A stretch of 20,590 nt of DNA from a virus. The notes under the pieces were generated by a model. It made no database searches and had not been told where the DNA came from. It was given only the letters and a program-made list of their open reading frames with translations. The position numbers were made by a program, and so were the translations under genes. The DNA lies in IMG/VR virus record IMGVR_UViG_3300032304_002474, positions 1 through 20,590 of that record; one strand, 5' to 3'. Within the stretch, counting starts at the first letter, position 1; every line of letters begins with the position of its first letter. Of this stretch, positions 1,930 through 20,590 are shown piece after piece.

Positions 1930-4062
1930 ATGAATGTAAGAGGCTTCGATGTGGGTACTTATAATATCGTTTGTTGCAAAAGAAGCGCAGACAATGAGTT
2001 TTCTTATAAACGAGAAGTCAATGGATTTCTTGAAATGCCCTTGGCGAATCGTTTTGTATTCAACATGATGAAGAATGCGGGTGTTCCATTAATCGAACAG
2101 CCAGAATCTAATGTTGCTTATGCTCTTGGTGAAGCTGCGGTCAATATGGCGTATACAATGACCCAAATAGAATTAAAGCGCCCTATGAAAGATGGTTGTT
2201 TGAATCCTAGAGAACGACACGCGCAGCAGATCATGAATGTCATGTGTCATAGTCTTATCGGAGAGGTAGAAGAAGATAATACAACTTTATACTATTCGGT
2301 GCCCGCAAACGCTATCAATCAAGAAACTGATGCTGACTATCACGGAAAAGTTCTTGAAGCGATGTTTAGATCATATAGAAGTGAAAAAGGTTACAAAGTT
2401 GATCCTCATCCAATAAATGAAGCTCTCGCGCTCGTCTATGCAGAATTAGGAAATAAAAATTGGACGGGTTTTGGAGTCAGTTGCTTGGTTCCTGGTACAA
2501 AGATCTATACCGATAAAGGAATATCAAATATTGAAAATGTTTCCGAAAATGACAAAGTGATAACGCACAAGGGAAGATGGAGAAATGTCAATAAGATCAT
2601 CACAAAACAATTCAAGGGAATGATGACCAAAATACAAATCCAAGGATATTCAAACAACACTAATGATTACAAATTTGTAGACAATCACGAATTGTATGTA
2701 AAAAGGAATGGATCATGGAGGTGGGTCGGTTGCGAGGAGTTAGTTGAAGGAGACATCGTTGGGGAACCCATAGTTGGACAAGACAGCACTTCTAGTCCCG
2801 TAACCATGACTTTATGTGAAAGAACCACATGTTCAAAAGAATACACAAAAAAAACAATAGGGTCTACGCCATCAATGCAAAGATTGATCGGGTACTTTAT
2901 GGGCGACGGCTCAGTGAATGAGATCGAAGGTTGTATTCAATTTGATTTTGCCAACCACGAAACTCAGAACATCAAGGATGTACAAGAGATAATCAAGAAC
3001 ATTTTTTCAAAAGATTCTTCGGAAACTAAACATGGAGATGGATGCACGCGTTTAAAATGTTACTCTAGGGGTCTGGTCAATTATTTCAAAAACAACATGT
3101 ATGACGAGAATAGAGTTAAGAAATATCCTTGGGATATAAGCAGACTGACAAAAAATGAATGTTTGAATTTGCTTATAGGTCTGGTGAGGAGTGATGGGTC
3201 GGTGTTAGAAGAATCCGTGTCTTTTTCTAATACTAATACGCGTTTAATTCTTTTGGCAAAGCAATTATTTTCAAGAATTGATTTGGCGGCTTCAATAAAT
3301 TTTAGAGAGCCAAGAATAAACGAAAAAGGAATAGGCGGAAGGTCTATAGTAGGAAAAAAGAAAGAATGGGGCGTAAGTTCGGGGGGTAAAAAAGTTTCTA
3401 GGTCCATAATTCAAGCATTTGAGGAAACAAATGAATCAAATGATAAAGTGCTTCAGAAAATTTTCATAGAGGATGGTTTCTGTTGTGGATACATTCAGAA
3501 AATAGAGCATGAGGAATACGATGGGGTTGTATATGACCTCCAAGTTGAGGAAGACCATAGTTTTTCTGGTCCTTATCTGACAATTCATAATTGTGGGGCC
3601 GGTATGGTGAACGTTTGCTACGCAATGTATGGTGCTCCTATATTTCATTTTTCTATAGTCAATAGTGGAGACTGGATTGACAAGATGGCATCAAAAGCCA
3701 TTGGAGAAGAAACCACAACGTATGTAAATAGAGAAAAAATGCACACAGATCTCACAGTTGAAAATCCAGATACTCTTGTACAGAGAGCAATAAAGACTCA
3801 ATATGAAATTATGATTCAACACACAGTTCAAGGAATTAAAAAAGGAATTGAAGAAGCCGGCAACAAGGCTCGATCTGAACAACCCATAGACGTTGTGGTA
3901 GCAGGAGGTACTAGTCTACCTAAGGGCTTCGATTTACTTTTTAGAAAAGTCCTTGAGCAGGCTAAGATAACAAATCTTAAACTAGGGGAGGTTATCAGAC
4001 CGCAAGACCCCCTCTATTCAGTGGCAAGAGGCTGTTTGATTGCGGCAGAAAACGCGAAATGA
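1930..4062 (+). CDS. actin/Hsp70-fold ATPase interrupted in frame by an intein
   Basis: The 710-residue precursor consists of an N-extein (1-184), an intein (185-554) and a C-extein (555-710); the spliced product would be 340 residues, a normal size for ParM/MreB-like proteins. The extein carries the ATPase-fold signatures. Phosphate-1 loop is FDVGT at residues 6-10. The phosphate-2 region is rebuilt across the splice junction as VS/CGAGMVNV. The adenosine loop is VVVAGGTSLPKG at about residues 655-667. Actin-fold proteins of phages and plasmids polymerise to move or position DNA, while Hsp70 relatives are chaperones; the sequence alone does not decide. The usual phosphate-2 aspartate appears to be Ser. 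AGGAG sits eight bases before the ATG; the gene lies between the 75-aa gene and a DUF5659-like gene. Confidence 0.85.
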   Translation: MNVRGFDVGTYNIVCCKRSADNEFSYKREVNGFLEMPLANRFVFNMMKNAGVPLIEQPESNVAYALGEAAVNMAYTMTQIELKRPMKDGCLNPRERHAQQIMNVMCHSLIGEVEEDNTTLYYSVPANAINQETDADYHGKVLEAMFRSYRSEKGYKVDPHPINEALALVYAELGNKNWTGFGVSCLVPGTKIYTDKGISNIENVSENDKVITHKGRWRNVNKIITKQFKGMMTKIQIQGYSNNTNDYKFVDNHELYVKRNGSWRWVGCEELVEGDIVGEPIVGQDSTSSPVTMTLCERTTCSKEYTKKTIGSTPSMQRLIGYFMGDGSVNEIEGCIQFDFANHETQNIKDVQEIIKNIFSKDSSETKHGDGCTRLKCYSRGLVNYFKNNMYDENRVKKYPWDISRLTKNECLNLLIGLVRSDGSVLEESVSFSNTNTRLILLAKQLFSRIDLAASINFREPRINEKGIGGRSIVGKKKEWGVSSGGKKVSRSIIQAFEETNESNDKVLQKIFIEDGFCCGYIQKIEHEEYDGVVYDLQVEEDHSFSGPYLTIHNCGAGMVNVCYAMYGAPIFHFSIVNSGDWIDKMASKAIGEETTTYVNREKMHTDLTVENPDTLVQRAIKTQYEIMIQHTVQGIKKGIEEAGNKARSEQPIDVVVAGGTSLPKGFDLLFRKVLEQAKITNLKLGEVIRPQDPLYSVARGCLIAAENAK
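2482..3591 (+). mobile_element. intein with LAGLIDADG homing endonuclease (370 aa)
   Basis: Residues 185-554 of the actin-like precursor. Block A is CLVPGTKIYTDKG with the catalytic Cys1. The block B region contains the histidine of DNHELYVK. Two LAGLIDADG-type helices are present, LIGYFMGDGS and LIGLVRSDGS, each with an acidic residue, so the endonuclease may be active. Block F is VVYDLQVEEDHSF; block G is LTIHN followed by extein Cys +1. All residues for class 1 splicing are present: Cys1, penultimate His, terminal Asn and Cys +1. The element sits inside the conserved phosphate-2 loop, a typical choice because precise loss is hard. It is in frame, with no stop or frameshift. Confidence 0.95.
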
Positions 4063-10663: not shown

Positions 10664-11035
10664 TTAATCTTCGTCTTCGTCGTCCTCATCTTCCCAATCA
10701 TCGTCATCTTCCCAATCATCGTCATCTTCTAATTCATCCTCATCATCATCCCAATCATCTTCGTCTTCTAGGTCTTCATCTTCATCCTCTAATTCATCTT
10801 CATCTTCATCTTCATCCTCATCCTCTAATTCATCTTCAGACTCCGAATCGTCTGACGTGTCCTTCCAGTCCCAGTCCGCAACGCCGTCTTCATCGTTGTC
10901 ATCGTCATCATCATATTGATAATTTTCTTCATCATCTTCGTCATCATATTTGCTCTCACAGGCGTAGTTGTATTCCTCATACCAGTCATTTCCATAAATA
11001 TAATCTATTTGACTTTGAAAATCATCGAAACTCAT
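10664..11035 (-). CDS. hyperacidic Asp/Glu-repeat protein, 123 aa
   Basis: About 78 of 123 residues are Asp or Glu and only two are Lys, giving an extreme negative charge. The N-terminus (1-35) is more normal, with Tyr and Trp (MSFDDFQSQIDYIYGNDWYE). The rest is built from DDDDWED, EDEDEL and similar units. Such proteins can mimic DNA, bind metal ions or shield basic proteins, but nothing here proves one of these. AGGAGG is placed nine bases before the ATG, and a good sigma70-like promoter lies upstream (11061-11088), suggesting strong, independent expression. Tandem 18-bp DNA repeats near the 3' end indicate growth by slippage. Coding status is supported by the well-formed start signals. Confidence 0.75.
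   Translation of the reverse strand: MSFDDFQSQIDYIYGNDWYEEYNYACESKYDDEDDEENYQYDDDDDNDEDGVADWDWKDTSDDSESEDELEDEDEDEDEDELEDEDEDLEDEDDWDDDEDELEDDDDWEDDDDWEDEDDEDED
10687..10722. repeat. two perfect 18-bp tandem copies
   Basis: CATCTTCCCAATCATCGT occurs at 10687-10704 and again immediately at 10705-10722. On the coding (minus) strand each copy encodes a six-residue unit of Asp, Trp and Glu (DDDWED phase). Adjacent DNA is a looser mix of TCATCT triplets, so the region probably expands and contracts. Confidence 0.85.
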
Positions 11036-11131: not shown

Positions 11132-12505
11132 TCAAACTATAAACTTTCTAACTAGTTTGTTGTCCTCTATATTCCACATTGATTTAGAGCCTATATTATT
11201 AGAAATTGAAAGAACGCATTTGGCGACAGAGTTTTTAAGTATTGTTTCATCGTCCCTCATTTCTTCTATAAGATTACCAGTTTCATCAAATTGATAGAAA
11301 GTATCAGAAGGAATTTCAACATCAACATCTTTTTCTAAAGAAAGACCAGAAACCATAGGCAAACTAGACATTTTAGCAGTTTTGTTTGATCTGACGCACA
11401 CGGTGGTTCCGTATTTGGTTTTAAGAACTTTGTCGTCTTTTTTAAGTTGTCTGACGACCTGTTTCCAATCCGTACTCGATAAAATCTTCATTTCAGAATG
11501 AGGTATTATTTGCCATTCTAAAAATACTTCTTTTATGATCTTGGCATGTGTAGGATTTTTAACCTGCGCTACAGCGACCATAGATTTGGCTATGTTGCAA
11601 TAGTAATTAACAACTCTAGCACTTGTTGGTATGGCTTCTAAAAGAATTGAAAAAGCGCTGTCTCTGGCTTCTTTCAAAGAAATTAGCCTATCTTTTCCTT
11701 GAGCAATATTGTTTTCGTATATTCTAACAAGGATGTGGTACCAAGCATTAGAAAATACTCGACCAAAACTATGACACTCGGCGGCAAGCATATTGTTTTT
11801 AGTTTCCTTAGGCAATCTTGCAGGATCTACATATAAAAACTTTTCTACCGCTGGGTCTCTCAGTGCATTTGCAAGATAAGCACTATCGCCAGTCACTCTT
11901 CTTATGAGAAGTCCAACTTCTTCTGCAAGTCTTGATACTGTATTTGAAACTAAAAGATTGCCTTTTGTTTCCTCTAAAACCTTTTTTAAGGCTATTTCGT
12001 AGTTCATAACATTAACCATCGCGACAATATCTGAGAAGGCTTCATGAAAAGACCAAATCTCTAATGATTGTACGCTCCAAAAGTCTGGGCGCATTGCATC
12101 AAGTACGGCATGACCAAGTTCATGGGTTACTATGTCAGAAGAATCCGAAAAATAATAGTTTTTACCTTCGAATCTATATTTAAAGAACTTAAGAGATCTT
12201 CTGTCATAATAAGCATTCATTTCGTTTCCAGCATCGGGATATACGCTTAAAAATTCTGTGGCAGCCCATTTTCTTAGTGGAACTTTAAATTTGTTTTGAA
12301 TCTGCTCAATGCAGTTTCCCATGGAGACATGGCAGTTTAGGGCTCTTGTTTCGTCTCGATTTTTAGGAGCAGGAGTCATTCCTTTTACTGCGTACTTGAG
12401 AAGTCCCACTTTTGGCATCACAAGATCTGCTGTGAGATCGGGCGTTGTGGGATCGTTTATTGGATATTTGATAAGCGACAAAAGACCGAGTAACTTCTTG
12501 AACAT
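11132..12505 (-). CDS. thermolysin-like zinc metalloprotease (gluzincin)
   Basis: The 457-residue protein contains the zinc site HELGH at residues 128-132 and, 23 residues later, HEAFSD with Glu155 as the third ligand and Asp159. This is the ExxxD arrangement of M4-like gluzincins (thermolysin has HExxH and then Glu 20 residues on). A further segment ECHSFGRVFSNAWYHILVRI (about 263-282) matches the helical C-terminal lobe. The N-terminus is short and only mildly hydrophobic, with no clear signal peptide and no usual FTP/PepSY propeptide, so it may act in the cytoplasm or within the virion. The last 150 residues are a separate unrecognised domain. AAGGAGG precedes ATG 12505; the gene diverges from mscL. 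Confidence 0.85.
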   Translation of the reverse strand: MFKKLLGLLSLIKYPINDPTTPDLTADLVMPKVGLLKYAVKGMTPAPKNRDETRALNCHVSMGNCIEQIQNKFKVPLRKWAATEFLSVYPDAGNEMNAYYDRRSLKFFKYRFEGKNYYFSDSSDIVTHELGHAVLDAMRPDFWSVQSLEIWSFHEAFSDIVAMVNVMNYEIALKKVLEETKGNLLVSNTVSRLAEEVGLLIRRVTGDSAYLANALRDPAVEKFLYVDPARLPKETKNNMLAAECHSFGRVFSNAWYHILVRIYENNIAQGKDRLISLKEARDSAFSILLEAIPTSARVVNYYCNIAKSMVAVAQVKNPTHAKIIKEVFLEWQIIPHSEMKILSSTDWKQVVRQLKKDDKVLKTKYGTTVCVRSNKTAKMSSLPMVSGLSLEKDVDVEIPSDTFYQFDETGNLIEEMRDDETILKNSVAKCVLSISNNIGSKSMWNIEDNKLVRKFIV

Positions 12506-12550
12506 TATAACCTCCTTGTTTCATGCTCCTAAAGATATATATCTTTTGAA
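12506..12550. promoter_or_regulatory. divergent promoter candidate with 16-bp perfect palindrome
   Basis: AAAGATATATATCTTT at 12531-12546 is a perfect palindrome centred between ATG 12505 (minus) and ATG 12551 (plus). On the minus side it is followed by AAGGAGG before the metalloprotease. On the plus side the ATG comes four bases after the palindrome and no ribosome site is visible. It may be a bidirectional promoter core or a dimeric protein-binding site. Confidence 0.5.
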
Positions 12551-13039
12551 ATGAAAAATCAGGAAGCAAGATCACTATTAGGTGAAAAAGAATTAAAAGA
12601 ATATAGAAACTTTGCCTTTAAAGATGATATGTTTAAGTTGGCGGTTGGTGTAGTTCTTGGAAATTCTTTTAATAAAGTTGTTTATGGAATATCTGATTAC
12701 ATCGTAATGCCTATTTTTACTTTTCTAGCATCTCACACAGGAAAAGAATGGCGGCATTGGAACATATCGCCAATGAAGGGTCTAAATTTTGAAATAGGTA
12801 AGATGTTTGGTTTATTTGTAGATTTTATACTTATTTCATTTATACTCTATTTAATTTACGTAAAACTTTTATCAAAAATAGCGGGTGCGGCACAACCAAA
12901 AATAAAACCTTGTCCGAAATGCTGTGGGACGGTCCCAGCATGTGCAACAAAATGCCCTCTTTGTACAGGAGATTTAATTGTCAAAGCAAGAAGAACTAGA
13001 AGAAAAAATAAGAGAACAGCGAACGATAGAGGCGAATAA
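12551..13039 (+). CDS. mscL: MscL-type mechanosensitive channel with C-terminal zinc ribbon
   Basis: The first 110 residues follow the large-conductance mechanosensitive channel: an amphipathic N-helix with YRNFAFKDDM, a first membrane helix KLAVGVVLGNSFNKVVYGI leading to YIVMPIFTF, and a loop. A second membrane helix, GLFVDFILISFILYLIYVKL, follows. In host cells MscL forms an inner-membrane pentamer that opens under membrane tension. The usual cytoplasmic C-terminal helix is replaced by a zinc-ribbon-like module, Cys121, 124, 125, 131, 135 and 138 (CPKCCGTVPACATKCPLC), and a very basic tail. The total of 162 aa is slightly above normal (about 130-150). The start lacks a Shine-Dalgarno sequence and follows a TATATA palindrome. 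The 3' end overlaps the next gene. Confidence 0.88.
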   Translation: MKNQEARSLLGEKELKEYRNFAFKDDMFKLAVGVVLGNSFNKVVYGISDYIVMPIFTFLASHTGKEWRHWNISPMKGLNFEIGKMFGLFVDFILISFILYLIYVKLLSKIAGAAQPKIKPCPKCCGTVPACATKCPLCTGDLIVKARRTRRKNKRTANDRGE

Positions 13040-14388: not shown

Positions 14389-14416
14389 ATTCTACACAAA
14401 TTCTAGTGCTTGTCAA
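14389..14416 (-). promoter_or_regulatory. sigma70 promoter of the 91-aa gene
   Basis: On the minus strand TTGACA (14416-14411) and TAGAAT (14394-14389) are separated by 16 bases. The -35 lies within the last codons of the ferritin-like gene. The predicted leader is about 35 bases and contains the AGGAG ribosome site. It is the best match to the bacterial consensus in the window. Confidence 0.75.
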
Positions 14417-14882
14417 CAGCACTTTCCAGCATTTCTCTAATATTATCTGCATCGCCTCTGCTATCGAGAATCTGATCCTCGAGGAAAAGAGCAATATAGG
14501 TTCCATCAACAAAGTCTTCGCCACCATTCTCTCCAAGTTCTTCTGCTTGGGCGTGTCTGGCGACGTAGTTTGAAACCACTTGGTCTTCCATTTCAAGGGC
14601 GGCTCTCAACAATGCTTTTGGGCATGTGAGATCTTGTTTAAAATCCGCAACGAGACTTGGAACATTTTTATTTAATTTTCGGCGTGTGATCAATCCTTGA
14701 ATGAGCCTTCTAAACTCTTCTACATGTTTCATTTCACTTTGTGCCTGCTCCACAAAATATTCACTTATTTCTTGCCTATGGAGGCCGCGAATATTTGTCG
14801 AGGCTTGCAGGTAAAAATGCATGTGCGCATATTCATTAGAAAGATCTTTAATAAGAAGATCTACTAGTTCTTCAATTTTCAT
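14403..14882 (-). CDS. ferritin-like diiron protein (bacterioferritin/Dps-like fold)
   Basis: The 159-residue protein fits a four-helix bundle. The first helix has LSNEYAHMHFYLQAS with Glu17 and Tyr18. The second has EQAQSEMKHVEEF, the ExxH metal motif. The third has LEMEDQVVSNYVARHAQ, and the fourth FLEDQILDSRGDADNIREML. The two acidic/His pairs have the spacing of a ferroxidase diiron centre. Such proteins oxidise and store iron or protect DNA from oxidative damage. Whether this one assembles into a 12- or 24-mer cannot be told. AGGA lies eight bases before ATG 14882, and the start overlaps the end of the upstream gene by 11 bp. Confidence 0.8.
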   Translation of the reverse strand: MKIEELVDLLIKDLSNEYAHMHFYLQASTNIRGLHRQEISEYFVEQAQSEMKHVEEFRRLIQGLITRRKLNKNVPSLVADFKQDLTCPKALLRAALEMEDQVVSNYVARHAQAEELGENGGEDFVDGTYIALFLEDQILDSRGDADNIREMLESAVDKH

Positions 14883-15187: not shown

Positions 15188-15349
15188 CTAGTTTTCTTTT
15201 TCAATACCAGATTTTTTAGATTTCCACTTTTCTAATCCTTCTTTTGTGAAAAACGCTGCGACGGCGTAAAAAATGCCCCCGAGTATAGGCTGGAGGAGCC
15301 ACGAAATAGAAAGTCCAAGCAGTCCAATAACTATAAATTTCTTTTTCAC
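15188..15349 (-). CDS. small membrane protein, 53 aa
   Basis: A 53-residue frame starting at GTG 15349. It encodes KKKFIVIGLLGLSISWLLQP then ILGGIFYAVAAFFTKEGLEK and a Lys-rich tail, that is, one long or two short membrane segments with positive ends. There is an in-frame stop five codons upstream, so GTG is the only sensible start; no Shine-Dalgarno sequence is visible. A CTATAG motif lies 18 bases before the start, in the divergent gap with the terminase gene. The stop is 10 bases before the next minus-strand start. Small size and topology recall holin-type or membrane-stress peptides, which is speculation. Confidence 0.55.
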   Translation of the reverse strand: MKKKFIVIGLLGLSISWLLQPILGGIFYAVAAFFTKEGLEKWKSKKSGIEKEN

Positions 15350-15383
15350 AAAAGTATTTAGTTAAAACTATAGATACAAGCAA
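15350..15383. promoter_or_regulatory. divergent promoter candidate with CTATAG
   Basis: The 34-bp gap between GTG 15349 (minus) and ATG 15384 (plus) contains the palindrome CTATAG at 15368-15373. It stands 10 bases before the terminase ATG and 18 bases before the minus-strand start. No Shine-Dalgarno sequence precedes either gene. It follows the same TATA-in-a-divergent-gap plan as elsewhere. Confidence 0.35.
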
Positions 15384-17201
15384 ATGCAAAATGGAAAAAA
15401 TACAATTCCAGAGAGTCTCGACTATCCCACAGAGCCGTTTGAAGATTTTTATTTTCGGTTCAAGAACACAAAGGAAATGGTAAGAGATCCTGAGTGGGAG
15501 AAAATATATTCGACCTATTACGAACTGGACGAGTATGAGATGGATGTCCCTGTCGGTGAGAAGGTGGAAGATTTAAATTCTTTCTCGGCGGATAAACAAA
15601 TCCAAGAAGTTATAAAATGTGCCAAAGACTTCTTTTATTTTTGTCATAGGTATGTGAAAATTTTACATCCTAAATTTGGAACCATACCCTTCGTTTTATA
15701 CAAATACCAAAGAAGAGTAATTCATGAATATGAGAACAATCGATTCAATATGATATCGAAATTCCGGCAAGGAGGATTAAGTACGGTTACGGTTCTATGG
15801 GGTTTGTGGAAATGCATGTTTCAAAAAGATCAACAAATCTATTTCTTGTCAAAAACTGATCGTGAAGCCTTAGCGGCAGGAGATATAGCACGAAGAGCGA
15901 TGGATAATTTTCCATATTGGATTTATGATAAAAATAACGCAGACATAACAAAACACGAAAAAAACTTTAGCGACGTGGGATCAAAAATATGCTTTTATAC
16001 TCCTGAGGCGGCGCGCGGTAAATCAGCCACTTATATCATGATCGACGAGGCAGCATTTATAGATAAGATGGATGAACATTGGAAAGCCATGTATCCTGTA
16101 ATCGCGACGGGTGGACACATAGAAATCATATCCACGGTCAATGGTCTTGGAAATTGGTATGAAGAGACATATCACGAAGCTCAGGCTGGACGAAACTTCT
16201 TTAACATAATAGATCTTGATTACTGGGAACACCCGGTCTATGCCAACCCAGAGTGGGCAGAGGCAATGAAGGCCAATCTTGGAGAAAAAGGATGGCAACA
16301 AGAAGTTCTTAGAGATTTTCTTGGTTCAGGTGAAACTTATATCTCTTCCAACGTAATAACTCAATACGACAAAGCAACAAGAAACACAGGCTTGTCTAGA
16401 AATGCCTTTTCAAAATGGACTAACGAATCGCAACAAAAGCAAAATTGTCCTGACGGTGCTCTTTGGATATGGAAAGAACCTATGAGTGGTCATGAGTACA
16501 TTATCGGAGTAGATTGCGCTGAAGGGGTTGGAAAAGATGGAGACAATTCTTGTTTTCAGGTGTTAGATGCAATCAGCCTTGAGCAAGTCGCAGAGTTTTA
16601 TAGCAACCTTGTGCCTCCAAATGTATTTGCACAAATATTAAATCAAATAGGGATTTATTATAACACTGCGACTATAGTGGTCGAAAACAACGCTATAGGC
16701 GGGGCTGTGATTAATAGCCTAAGTAATGATTTAGGATATGAATCAATATATTACGAAAGCCGAAAATCATCAACGAAATTAGGAATCAAAATGAGTCCTT
16801 CAAATCGTCCAATACTTCTTGAGGCAATGCAAAACAGATTGATGAACGGAAGCGTACGCATAAATAGCCAAAGACTTGTTGGAGAGTTGAAAACATTCAT
16901 ATACAGTCCGCAAAAGAAAAGAGCAGAAGCTATAAAAGGAAAACATGATGATGCTATTATGGCATTGTGTCTTGCTCTTTACGTTCGAGATGAAAGATTA
17001 CGAGGAATGCCTTTGAGCATGGACAAAGGAGATCAAGAGATACTTCTTAAAAAAACAAATCCTTACGAAGACATAAAAAAAGAAATCATGGAAGGTGGAA
17101 ATTCGGATTGGTTCGAGACAAAATCAGGGAACAAAGAATTCTCTATGGATGATTTTCCTCAAAGAGGAAATGATGGACTTCTTAAGGAGTTTGGATGGTA
17201 A
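15384..17201 (+). CDS. terminase large subunit (T4 gp17-like packaging ATPase and nuclease)
   Basis: The 605-residue protein has both domains of the packaging motor. The ATPase part has a Walker A-like loop KFRQGGLST (126-134), a Walker B IMIDEAA with Asp221 and Glu222, and a coupling motif ISTVNG (249-254). The nuclease part, of RNase H fold, has Asp377 in IIGVDCAEG, Glu434 in IVVENNAIGG and Asp522/Asp523 in KHDDAIMAL. The protein docks at the portal and translocates and cuts concatemeric DNA. The Walker A loop lacks the usual GK(S/T) and relies on the first Lys/Arg residues, as in many phage terminases. Length fits gp17 (about 610). The start has no Shine-Dalgarno sequence. The end overlaps the next gene by 7 bp. 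Confidence 0.95.
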   Translation: MQNGKNTIPESLDYPTEPFEDFYFRFKNTKEMVRDPEWEKIYSTYYELDEYEMDVPVGEKVEDLNSFSADKQIQEVIKCAKDFFYFCHRYVKILHPKFGTIPFVLYKYQRRVIHEYENNRFNMISKFRQGGLSTVTVLWGLWKCMFQKDQQIYFLSKTDREALAAGDIARRAMDNFPYWIYDKNNADITKHEKNFSDVGSKICFYTPEAARGKSATYIMIDEAAFIDKMDEHWKAMYPVIATGGHIEIISTVNGLGNWYEETYHEAQAGRNFFNIIDLDYWEHPVYANPEWAEAMKANLGEKGWQQEVLRDFLGSGETYISSNVITQYDKATRNTGLSRNAFSKWTNESQQKQNCPDGALWIWKEPMSGHEYIIGVDCAEGVGKDGDNSCFQVLDAISLEQVAEFYSNLVPPNVFAQILNQIGIYYNTATIVVENNAIGGAVINSLSNDLGYESIYYESRKSSTKLGIKMSPSNRPILLEAMQNRLMNGSVRINSQRLVGELKTFIYSPQKKRAEAIKGKHDDAIMALCLALYVRDERLRGMPLSMDKGDQEILLKKTNPYEDIKKEIMEGGNSDWFETKSGNKEFSMDDFPQRGNDGLLKEFGW

Positions 17202-17774: not shown

Positions 17775-18809
17775 ATGGCAGCTGAAACGACTATTCAGAT
17801 GAGAAGAGGCCTTGCGGCCACGTGGACATCAACGAACCCAACACTTGCAGCGGGCGAGTGGGGCTTCGAGACGGACACAAAGAAAATGAAGATGGGAGAC
17901 GGAGCGACTGCTTGGGCTTCGTTGCCGTACTCAGTAAGACAAGTTGACAACATTTTAATAAGCACGAACACAATCAGTTCGACAGACCAAAATGGAAACA
18001 TCACTCTGCAGCCAAATGGAACTGGTTCGGTTGTTGTTACCGGCGACGTTTACTCGCAGAGCAACAAACTTCTTGCCACAAAAGACTACGTTGACGCTGT
18101 CAAACAGGGTCTCGATGTCAAGAACTCAGTTCGTGCCGCGACGACTGAAAATGTGAATCTTGCCAACGCTCTTGAAAATGGAGACGTTGTAGACGGTGTC
18201 GAGCTTGTTACGGGCGACAGAGTTCTCGTCAAGAACCAGACCACAGCCTCACAGAACGGCATTTACGTTGTAAAGGCAAGTGGTGCCCCAGACAGAGCAG
18301 ATGACGCCAACAGCAATGATGACGTTACTGCGGGTATGTTTACATTCGTCGAGCAAGGCACAGTGAATGCTGACAGTGGTTGGGTTTTAACTTCTGACGG
18401 TGCAATCACTCTTGGAACCACAAGTCTTGCATTTACTCAATTTTCTGGCGCTGGCCAGGTGGGTGCCGGCGGTGGTATGACGAAAACTGGCAACACTCTC
18501 GATGTTGTTGGCACTGCGGACAGAATTACCGTAAACGCTGACAGTGTTGACATTGCCTCTACTTACGCTGGTCAGAACACAATCACGACCCTCGGAACCA
18601 TCGGAACCGGAACATGGCAGGGCTCAACAGTAGCAACCATATACGGCGGAACAGGTCTTGCGACTTATGCTGCGGGCGATTTACTCTACGCCTCCGCATC
18701 AAACACTCTTTCGTCTCTTGCGAAAGGTTCATCTTATCAATTCCTAAAGATGAACGCCGCAGGAACGGCTCCGGAGTGGTCGAACACGATCGACGGCGGA
18801 ACTCCTTGA
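17775..18809 (+). CDS. tail-fibre-like protein with Mtd-like N-terminal domain, 344 aa
   Basis: Residues about 5-55 (TIQMRRGLAATWTSTNPTLA, then GEWGFETDTKKMKMGDG and TAWASLPY) match the short beta-prism repeat found at the N-terminus of major tropism determinant proteins and many phage fibres. Residues about 105-230 form a second domain with VRAATTENVNLANALENG, GDRVLVKNQTTASQNGIYVV and ITLGTTSLAFTQFSG, homologous to the start of the gene at 19735. A Gly/Thr-rich shaft follows, with TIYGGTGLATYAAGDLLYAS and YQFLKMNAAGTAPEW. Likely a trimeric receptor-binding or baseplate-associated fibre. AGGAG precedes the ATG. The gene is visibly richer in G+C than its neighbours and is closed by a strong terminator. 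Confidence 0.85.
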   Translation: MAAETTIQMRRGLAATWTSTNPTLAAGEWGFETDTKKMKMGDGATAWASLPYSVRQVDNILISTNTISSTDQNGNITLQPNGTGSVVVTGDVYSQSNKLLATKDYVDAVKQGLDVKNSVRAATTENVNLANALENGDVVDGVELVTGDRVLVKNQTTASQNGIYVVKASGAPDRADDANSNDDVTAGMFTFVEQGTVNADSGWVLTSDGAITLGTTSLAFTQFSGAGQVGAGGGMTKTGNTLDVVGTADRITVNADSVDIASTYAGQNTITTLGTIGTGTWQGSTVATIYGGTGLATYAAGDLLYASASNTLSSLAKGSSYQFLKMNAAGTAPEWSNTIDGGTP

Positions 18810-19044: not shown

Positions 19045-19605
19045 ATGCCTGCAATAGACAACATTAAATTAAGAAGAGGAACTAGCGGGCAGTGGTCATT
19101 TGCTGACCCTGTACTGGCTGAGGGAGAGCCCGGTTTCGACACCACAAACAACTTAATGAAGGTTGGGAATGGACGGGATCCATGGAGCCTATTATCTGTT
19201 TTTGCGTTGGCCAATCCCATAATACTTTCGTCCGCCTCCGCATTTGCCAATAAAATTACTATACGTTCTCCTATTGTGAATTTCAAGCAAGTGGCCGATA
19301 CGAATATGTTTGAGGTTCCTAATGGTCACATGTTTTCCATAGACTCATTTGAAATTCTTACAACAGAAATCTCCAATCCGAATAGCCCCCCAGTCATAAG
19401 ATTCGGAACAACCACACTCCCGGCAGAATATTATGCTGCGACTCAAGTCACAAGTAATAGTGTTGGAGCCAGACACATAATAGACAACCCACAGGATGCA
19501 GCTACGGCTGGAACCATCATATCTTTTGGCGTGACAAATGCTTCTACAGCAAGCGCTCACTCTGGCTGTGCCATCGTAAAAGGATATTTATTCAAGACTT
19601 CTTGA
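19045..19605 (+). CDS. second fibre-like protein with the same N-terminal domain, 186 aa
   Basis: Residues 5-50 (NIKLRRGTSGQWSFADPVLA, GEPGFDTTNNLMKVGNG and WSLL) repeat the N-terminal domain of the fibre gene at 17775. The following part (about 75-186) is different: it has FEVPNGHMFSIDSFEILTTE, PPVIRFGTT and a C-terminal CAIVKGYLFKTS, and looks like a compact beta-sandwich head. It is thus a short adapter or fibre with a new tip. ATG 19045 is preceded by AAAGAGAATGA. The 235-bp region upstream of it contains the terminator at 18831-18874 and otherwise only short hairpins. The gene is probably transcribed separately from the first fibre. Confidence 0.8.
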   Translation: MPAIDNIKLRRGTSGQWSFADPVLAEGEPGFDTTNNLMKVGNGRDPWSLLSVFALANPIILSSASAFANKITIRSPIVNFKQVADTNMFEVPNGHMFSIDSFEILTTEISNPNSPPVIRFGTTTLPAEYYAATQVTSNSVGARHIIDNPQDAATAGTIISFGVTNASTASAHSGCAIVKGYLFKTS

Positions 19606-19734: not shown

Positions 19735-20590
19735 ATGGTCAATTCTTATGTTGAAAACTCCGCTGTATCTGATCTTGACTTCAAACAGTCCGTAAGATCT
19801 GCCACGACTGGAAATATAACTCTTTCGGGTCTTCAGACCGTAGATCAAGTTTCTCTCGTAAATGGCAATAGGATTCTCGTTAAGGATCAGACCGAAGGAA
19901 GTCAGAATGGAATTTACATAGTTTCCTCCGGGTCTTGGACTAGATCACTAGACGCCAACGGAAATTCAGAGATCTCGTCTGGAATGATGTTGTTCGTAGA
20001 GGAAGGTTTCTCAAACGCAAGAACCTTATGGATACTTTCCACGAACAATCCAATAACATTAGGATCCACCTCTCTTTCATTTACAAGATTTGTAGGCGCT
20101 CAAGGAACAACAGGTTCACAAGGAACAACGGGTTCACAAGGAACAACAGGTTCACAAGGAACAACAGGTTCACAAGGAACAACAGGTTCACAAGGATTGA
20201 CAGGTTCACAAGGATTGACAGGTTCACAAGGAATACAAGGCAGGCAAGGATTAACTGGTAGTCAAGATTTAACAACATCATTGGCAGCAGGAAGTGGAAT
20301 AATTTTCACATATGATTCGGGTAGCGATACTCTCACGCTTTCTTTACAAAACGTACAAGGAATTCAAGGACTAACCGGTATCCAAGGAACAACAGGTTCA
20401 CAAGGAACAACAGGTTCACAAGGAACAACAGGTTCACAAGGAACAACAGGTTCACAAGGATTAACAGGTTCACAAGGATTAACAGGTAGTCAGGGAATAC
20501 AGGGCGGACAAGGATTGACTGGTAGTCAAGATTTAACAACATCATTGGCGGCAGGAAGTGGAATAATTTTCACATATGATTCGGGTAGCG
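19735..20590 (+). CDS. collagen-like tail fibre, incomplete at the window end
   Basis: At least 285 codons are open and the gene runs off the window. Residues 15-120 ([52 protein letters not shown]) are homologous to the second domain of the gene at 17775. From residue about 121 follow Gly-X-Y triplets such as [12 protein letters not shown] and [12 protein letters not shown], a collagen-like trimeric stalk. The triplet tract is interrupted by a folded insert ([20 protein letters not shown] and so on), then starts again, and the same insert begins again at the window edge. ATG 19735 follows an in-frame stop at 19711; it has no ribosome site but sits next to CTATATAT. The likely role is host attachment. 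Confidence 0.88.
20095..20274 (+). repeat. first array of 18-bp collagen-coding repeats
   Basis: Ten 18-bp units start at 20095, 20113, 20131 and so on up to 20257. The core unit is GGTTCACAAGGAACAACA (GSQGTT); later units vary as GGATTGACA or GGAATACAA. Each unit codes two Gly-X-Y triplets except the last, where Gly is replaced by Asp. Confidence 0.9.
20377..20538 (+). repeat. second array of 18-bp repeats, 264 bp from the first
   Basis: Nine 18-bp units from 20377 to 20538 repeat the first array with an offset of exactly 264 bp (20113 to 20377, 20257 to 20521). The following unique insert is repeated too (20275 onward and 20539 onward), with one visible base change within about 50 bases. 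The tract is therefore a higher-order tandem repeat of 88 codons that continues beyond the window. Confidence 0.9.

Follow-up and report, generated by a model that had tools for sequence, protein, structure and literature searches.

A divergent, optional MscL-family channel gene with a putative zinc ribbon at a fixed site in a lineage of large phages

The window analysed here is the whole stretch of 20,590 nucleotides that makes up positions 1 to 20,590 of the IMG/VR virus record IMGVR_UViG_3300032304_002474, and the features discussed below are collected in Table 1. We report that an intact open reading frame, with an ATG at 12551 and a stop codon at 13037-13039, encodes a relative of MscL, the bacterial pressure-release channel. 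The gene is flanked on one side by a divergent peptidase gene and on the other by g12978, a core gene of the phage lineage. The phage setting that the earlier note had proposed is borne out by the large terminase gene, located 2.3 kb downstream, and by synteny with many viral contigs. For the MscL gene, the terminase gene and several others no clear Shine-Dalgarno sequence was seen, and an A/T-rich TATA-like element is present shortly upstream (12506-12550, 15324-15383 and other starts); these elements possibly represent a phage-specific late promoter, or the transcripts may be leaderless.

Table 1. Features at and around the MscL gene of the window
Feature	Position	Strand	Remarks
M4/thermolysin-like peptidase gene, divergent, HELGH motif	11132..12505	-	weak profile match only; other flank of the slot
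Phage MscL gene with putative C-terminal zinc ribbon	12551..13039	+	162 aa
N-terminal amphipathic helix S1, residues 12-22	12584..12616	+	AlphaFold2 secondary structure; aligns with cellular S1
Pore helix TM1, residues 25-60	12623..12730	+	AlphaFold2 and alignment; L30/V34 correspond to the L19/V23 lock, G33/G37 to G22/G26
Periplasmic loop, residues 61-81	12731..12793	+	virus-specific TG..WR..P..G signature and beta hairpin
TM2, residues 82-110	12794..12880	+	AlphaFold2; hydropathy
Putative zinc ribbon CPKC-x10-CPLC, residues 118-141	12902..12973	+	invariant C121/C124/C135/C138; pLDDT about 90
Shine-Dalgarno sequence AGGAGAT of g12978	12967..12973	+	inside MscL codons T139-G140-D141
62-nt overlap, MscL basic tail (residues 144-162 and stop) with first 20 codons of g12978	12978..13039	+	
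g12978, core gene, TTG start, 202 aa	12978..13586	+	found in 30 of the 37 related phage records that were searched
T4-type large terminase gene	15384..17201	+	defines the phage lineage

The Pfam MscL profile (PF01741) matched residues 15-112 with an E-value of 7.7e-17 (62.2 bits, cut-off 27.4), and MscL chains of the PDB were matched down to an E-value of 2e-11. A single chain was modelled with AlphaFold2 from a 41-row alignment (mean pLDDT 79; pTM 0.48, a modest overall value, as can be expected when one subunit of a multimer is modelled by itself). The model has helices at residues 12-22, 25-60 and 82-110, strands at 71-75 and 78-81, and short ribbon strands at 118-120 and 127-129, such that the N-terminal amphipathic helix, TM1, the periplasmic loop and TM2 of the MscL topology are all predicted. 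Its top Foldseek matches were the archaeal MscL 4y7k (E 9.7e-4) and the M. tuberculosis MscL 2oar (E 0.018). The earlier note had proposed an MscL-type channel and had named beforehand a missing profile match and an unfitting topology as grounds for giving this up; both analyses were run, and the above-cut-off Pfam match, the predicted fold and the Foldseek matches agree with the proposal. On profile and predicted fold, the assignment to the MscL family is thus strong and far beyond chance.

In the alignment, L19, G22, V23 and G26 of E. coli MscL correspond to L30, G33, V34 and G37 of the window protein, and the positions of the hydrophobic lock formed by L19/V23 (PMC4917966) are therefore conserved. 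Moreover, F10 aligns with F21 and G14 with D25; polar residues at G14 (S, Q, E and R) leave the E. coli channel functional (PMC4917966). The A27/A28 positions are N and S in the window protein. In two other viral members (L101 and L213) the small-residue pattern of TM1 is poorly kept and the match to the lock and small residues is weaker. The window protein thus resembles the MscLs of M. acetivorans (MaMscL, 4y7k) and M. tuberculosis (MtMscL, 2oar) in profile, predicted fold, lock positions and an amphipathic N-terminal helix followed by two membrane helices, and it probably forms a homopentameric, membrane-tension-gated and non-selective pore. It differs from them in its longer periplasmic loop with the WR signature, in its placement in a separate clade, in the lack of an EIRDLLK-type C-terminal bundle, and in its scores against the canonical mscL equivalog models of NCBIfam (TIGR00220 and PRK), which reach at most 50.7 bits where the cut-offs are 71-225 (TIGR00220, 45.9 bits against 71). 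Given these scores we regard it as a divergent MscL relative rather than filing it as a canonical mscL ortholog, and its gating could have drifted. The PHROG 25692 profile, which carries no functional label, aligns with residues 15-128 of the protein.

Following TM2, where the canonical C-terminal helical bundle was looked for, the window protein has instead a segment that we refer to, on the basis of motif and homology, as a putative zinc ribbon; scores against curated ribbon profiles were below cut-off (best E 3.3 for the window tail; best 22.4 bits against 27.3 for a cellular homolog). The protein has six cysteines (121, 124, 125, 131, 135 and 138), and only C121, C124, C135 and C138, which form two conserved CxxC knuckles, are invariant among close relatives. 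Hence, of the six-cysteine ribbon described earlier as replacing the bundle, the replacement stands, as a Cys4 ribbon, and the six-cysteine site was rejected because two of the cysteines vary. Another candidate homolog (L006) was set aside as its similarity is confined to the ribbon, in a helicase-like protein.

A CPxC-x10-CPxC ribbon in the same place, after TM2 and instead of the bundle, is also present in bacterial MscLs from Clostridia, Bacilli, Coriobacteriia and some Chloroflexota, Acidobacteriota, Verrucomicrobiota and Pseudomonadota. Nearly all of 80 bacterial loci had it in a search that was biased towards the ribbon, and in samples of 30 each that were not picked for it the ribbon occurred in 11 Clostridia, 3 Pseudomonadota and 1 member of the phylum to which a Verrucomicrobia genome belongs, where one positive in each of the latter two is the genome on which the sample was centred and where the frequencies may be low, each sample being the best-scoring matches. 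Most bacterial MscLs without the ribbon finish in the usual EIRDLLK-type helix. Ribbon-type bacterial loci across several phyla were recorded as L015-L094, L241-L243, L259 and L288-L303. The idea of a zinc-ribbon fusion special to, or invented by, the phage was accordingly rejected: the architecture is common in bacteria, and as bacterial MscLs carry the same ribbon it is most simply read as an alternative cellular C-terminal domain that the phage inherited from cells. Three viral lineages (L013, L101 and L213) have no ribbon. Relative to the ribbon-type bacterial proteins the phage forms stand apart from those sampled, and the window subgroup has in addition a CTGDL motif bearing the Shine-Dalgarno sequence of the next gene and an overlap-encoded basic tail. 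In known MscLs the C-terminal domain tunes gating but can be dispensed with for it, and the M. acetivorans protein has none (PMC6167328). Since this domain is not needed for mechanosensitivity (PMC6167328), a ribbon in its place is compatible with a working channel. The ribbon probably has a part in tuning assembly or gating, and not in nucleic-acid binding. No paper on MscL and a zinc ribbon was found in the literature searched, which covered few subscription journals and is weak evidence of absence.

The basic tail is encoded where the MscL gene overlaps g12978, the product of which gave a predicted structure of low confidence (pLDDT 47). The homologous g12978 start is kept in relatives as TTG, GTG or ATG, and the length of the overlap varies. 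The five closest members have 62 nt, L106 has 34 nt, L204 and L211 have 8 nt, and L210 and L212 have 176 nt; in L206-L209, taking the nearest ATG as the start, it is about 4 nt or less. Within the 62-nt overlap, pairwise differences number 27, 18 and 57 at g12978 codon positions 1, 2 and 3, which are 57, 27 and 18 for MscL; the overlap thus evolves as coding sequence of g12978, and the tail of MscL follows. As the tail is encoded in this overlap, its charge is largely set by g12978 codons. In the same way, the g12978 ribosome-binding site confounds the CTGDL motif, which is invariant in the close group. In more distant viral members the tail is missing and the proteins end shortly after the ribbon. 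The tail noted earlier is present, and does not by itself speak for contact with nucleic acid: a role as nucleic-acid binder is not supported, given the overlap coding and the substitutions mostly at g12978 third positions, and a tether of ribbon and tail together fares no better, with the tail absent from distant members and three lineages ribbonless. The zinc-ribbon fusion and the basic tail, the striking features of the first description, have ordinary explanations.

A search with the terminase gave 80 related viral loci. The close relatives (L001-L005) share 63-65% identity in MscL and 82-85% in the terminase, and more distant MscL members sit on contigs of 223-323 kb. MscL with a Pfam score over the cut-off was present in 11 of the 12 related records that were searched first, and in 11 of 50 further terminase-related records. 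Overall, an MscL of the viral clade was found in at least 23 records of one large-phage lineage, including the window and the fragment L014, several of these records being near-copies of one another. Because many related large phages are without the gene, it is not essential to the lineage. A first profile scan of the contigs with the viral MscL alignment gave no matches; a second weak MscL match was seen in G003 and in G004, and inspection of the G004 site revealed no MscL-like open reading frame. Two human-gut 'Bacteriophage sp.' sequences (MT837450 and MT835945) have bacterial-looking neighbours and MscLs that fall among Clostridia in the tree, and were treated as bacterial fragments.

In 14 records the MscL gene lies between the divergent peptidase gene and g12978, and the terminase follows downstream wherever the contig reaches far enough. 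The same slot is empty in 21 records, including the 595-kb phage LR756511, where peptidase and g12978 are adjacent with nothing recognisable between them; four of these (G006, G007, G009 and G049) have an MscL elsewhere in the genome. On the terminase tree slot occupancy requires at least four changes of state, and from this and the pattern of filled and empty slots MscL is an optional module at a fixed site that has been gained or lost several times.

In a tree of 155 rows the 20 viral MscLs form a single clade with 100/100 support and a stem of 1.42 changes per column. A tree of core columns without the ribbon again gave one viral group (100/100), with a single origin in 100% of bootstraps. 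The rooting was by midpoint, and the viral clade is thus separate from the sampled cellular MscLs and not necessarily older. For two close pairs the dN/dS ratios were 0.149 (L003/L004) and 0.150 (L010/L012), that is purifying selection, and wider pairs were saturated or nearly so at synonymous sites; the MscL gene is maintained by selection on its protein. The 381-kb record G055 encodes a cell-type MscL (L203) that lacks the ribbon and whose open frame includes a long Val/Glu-rich extension at the N-terminus. Its long branch falls outside the viral clade, and it is probably an independent acquisition.

MscL genes of Caudoviricetes have been counted in estuarine viromes against salinity, and an aid to host osmotic management was proposed (mSystems 2026, PMC13288924). 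Phage MscL genes are thus already known from viromes; the passages of that report that were consulted describe phage-borne MscL likewise and no clade, slot, ribbon or overlap. The present viral branch is under-described. No relevant paper on huge phages and mechanosensitivity was found in the literature searched (few subscription journals; weak evidence).

The roles suggested in the earlier note were lysis timing, osmotic survival of the infected cell and DNA entry; the first two are possible, and DNA entry is unlikely as the protein is made after infection. On balance we lean towards a virus-adapted, tension-gated release valve that would protect infected cells from premature osmotic bursting. 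In its favour count the family membership and predicted fold, the conserved gate residues, the single viral clade under purifying selection and the repeated filling of the slot. In an infected cell the wall and the osmotic balance would be compromised and the cell's own MscL pool no longer replenished; the phage MscL would open near lytic tension and vent cytoplasmic solutes, and the cell might thereby be kept from bursting before virions mature. At the cytoplasmic mouth the C-terminal bundle is replaced by the ribbon, just as it is in the bacterial MscL subfamily, and the basic tail is a product of overlapping coding. The host may already have an MscL, which counts against the valve reading, as do the scores below the NCBIfam equivalog cut-offs, the N and S at A27/A28, the weaker TM1 pattern of L101 and L213 and the many related large phages that lack the gene.

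We consider it unlikely that the channel is instead a lysis-timing device, with a gating threshold or leakiness by which, at a set time, the membrane potential would be dissipated or the cell weakened, as a holin-like protein or modulator of the lysis clock. Proximity to the terminase, retention in the close lineage and a gate region diverged from cellular MscL would fit this; however, the conserved gate lock favours a channel that is closed at rest, none of those window proteins that were scanned was recognised as an endolysin or spanin, and many sister phages do without MscL. Slightly less likely still is a dedicated partnership with the g12978 product or the M4-like peptidase in an envelope complex, with the ribbon as the site at the channel mouth where the partner docks. 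Wherever MscL fills the slot, it has the same orientation as g12978 and overlaps or nearly abuts it, and translation of the two is therefore probably coupled, but neither g12978 nor the peptidase needs MscL, judging from the 21 records where they are adjacent without it, three viral lineages have lost the ribbon, and in four records MscL is located elsewhere. That MscL is a passenger recently picked up from the host, of no benefit, would suit its patchy occurrence on the terminase tree, but is already disfavoured and very improbable in view of the dN/dS of about 0.15 and the deep monophyletic clade with its long stem. Superinfection exclusion, or an envelope change that blocks later phages, is equally improbable: nothing specific speaks for it beyond the membrane nature of the protein and its presumed synthesis after infection, and the channel core matches no defence model, the only PADLOC hit being a weak one to the ribbon segment (E 0.0087).

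If the release-valve role is true, control of host turgor would join the functions that large phages run themselves. A broader picture, which we put forward tentatively and hold to be rather less probable than the valve itself, is that of a long-standing phage-owned MscL branch, retuned for the infected cell and carried as a module in a packaging-region locus, by which large phages regularly control host turgor. Whatever the role, the data define a viral MscL clade for which empty slots provide natural controls, and they bring to attention a subtype of bacterial MscL that has a ribbon for the C-terminal bundle.

Other features of the window include, beside the large terminase, a gene for a ferritin-like protein (14403-14882, minus strand), a position in which it is conserved in many related phages. 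An open reading frame of 123 residues at 10664-11035 (minus strand) consists mostly of Asp and Glu. At 1930-4062 (plus strand) an intein composed of Hint and LAGLIDADG parts interrupts an actin-like protein that belongs to the Volactin family (E 6.5e-56); the relatives of this protein in G002 and G003, at 86-89% identity, have no intein. Finally, successive tail-fibre-like open reading frames are present at 17775-18809, 19045-19605 and 19735-20589 (plus strand), the first matching the Mtd N-terminal domain and the last having GTTGSQ collagen-like repeats.
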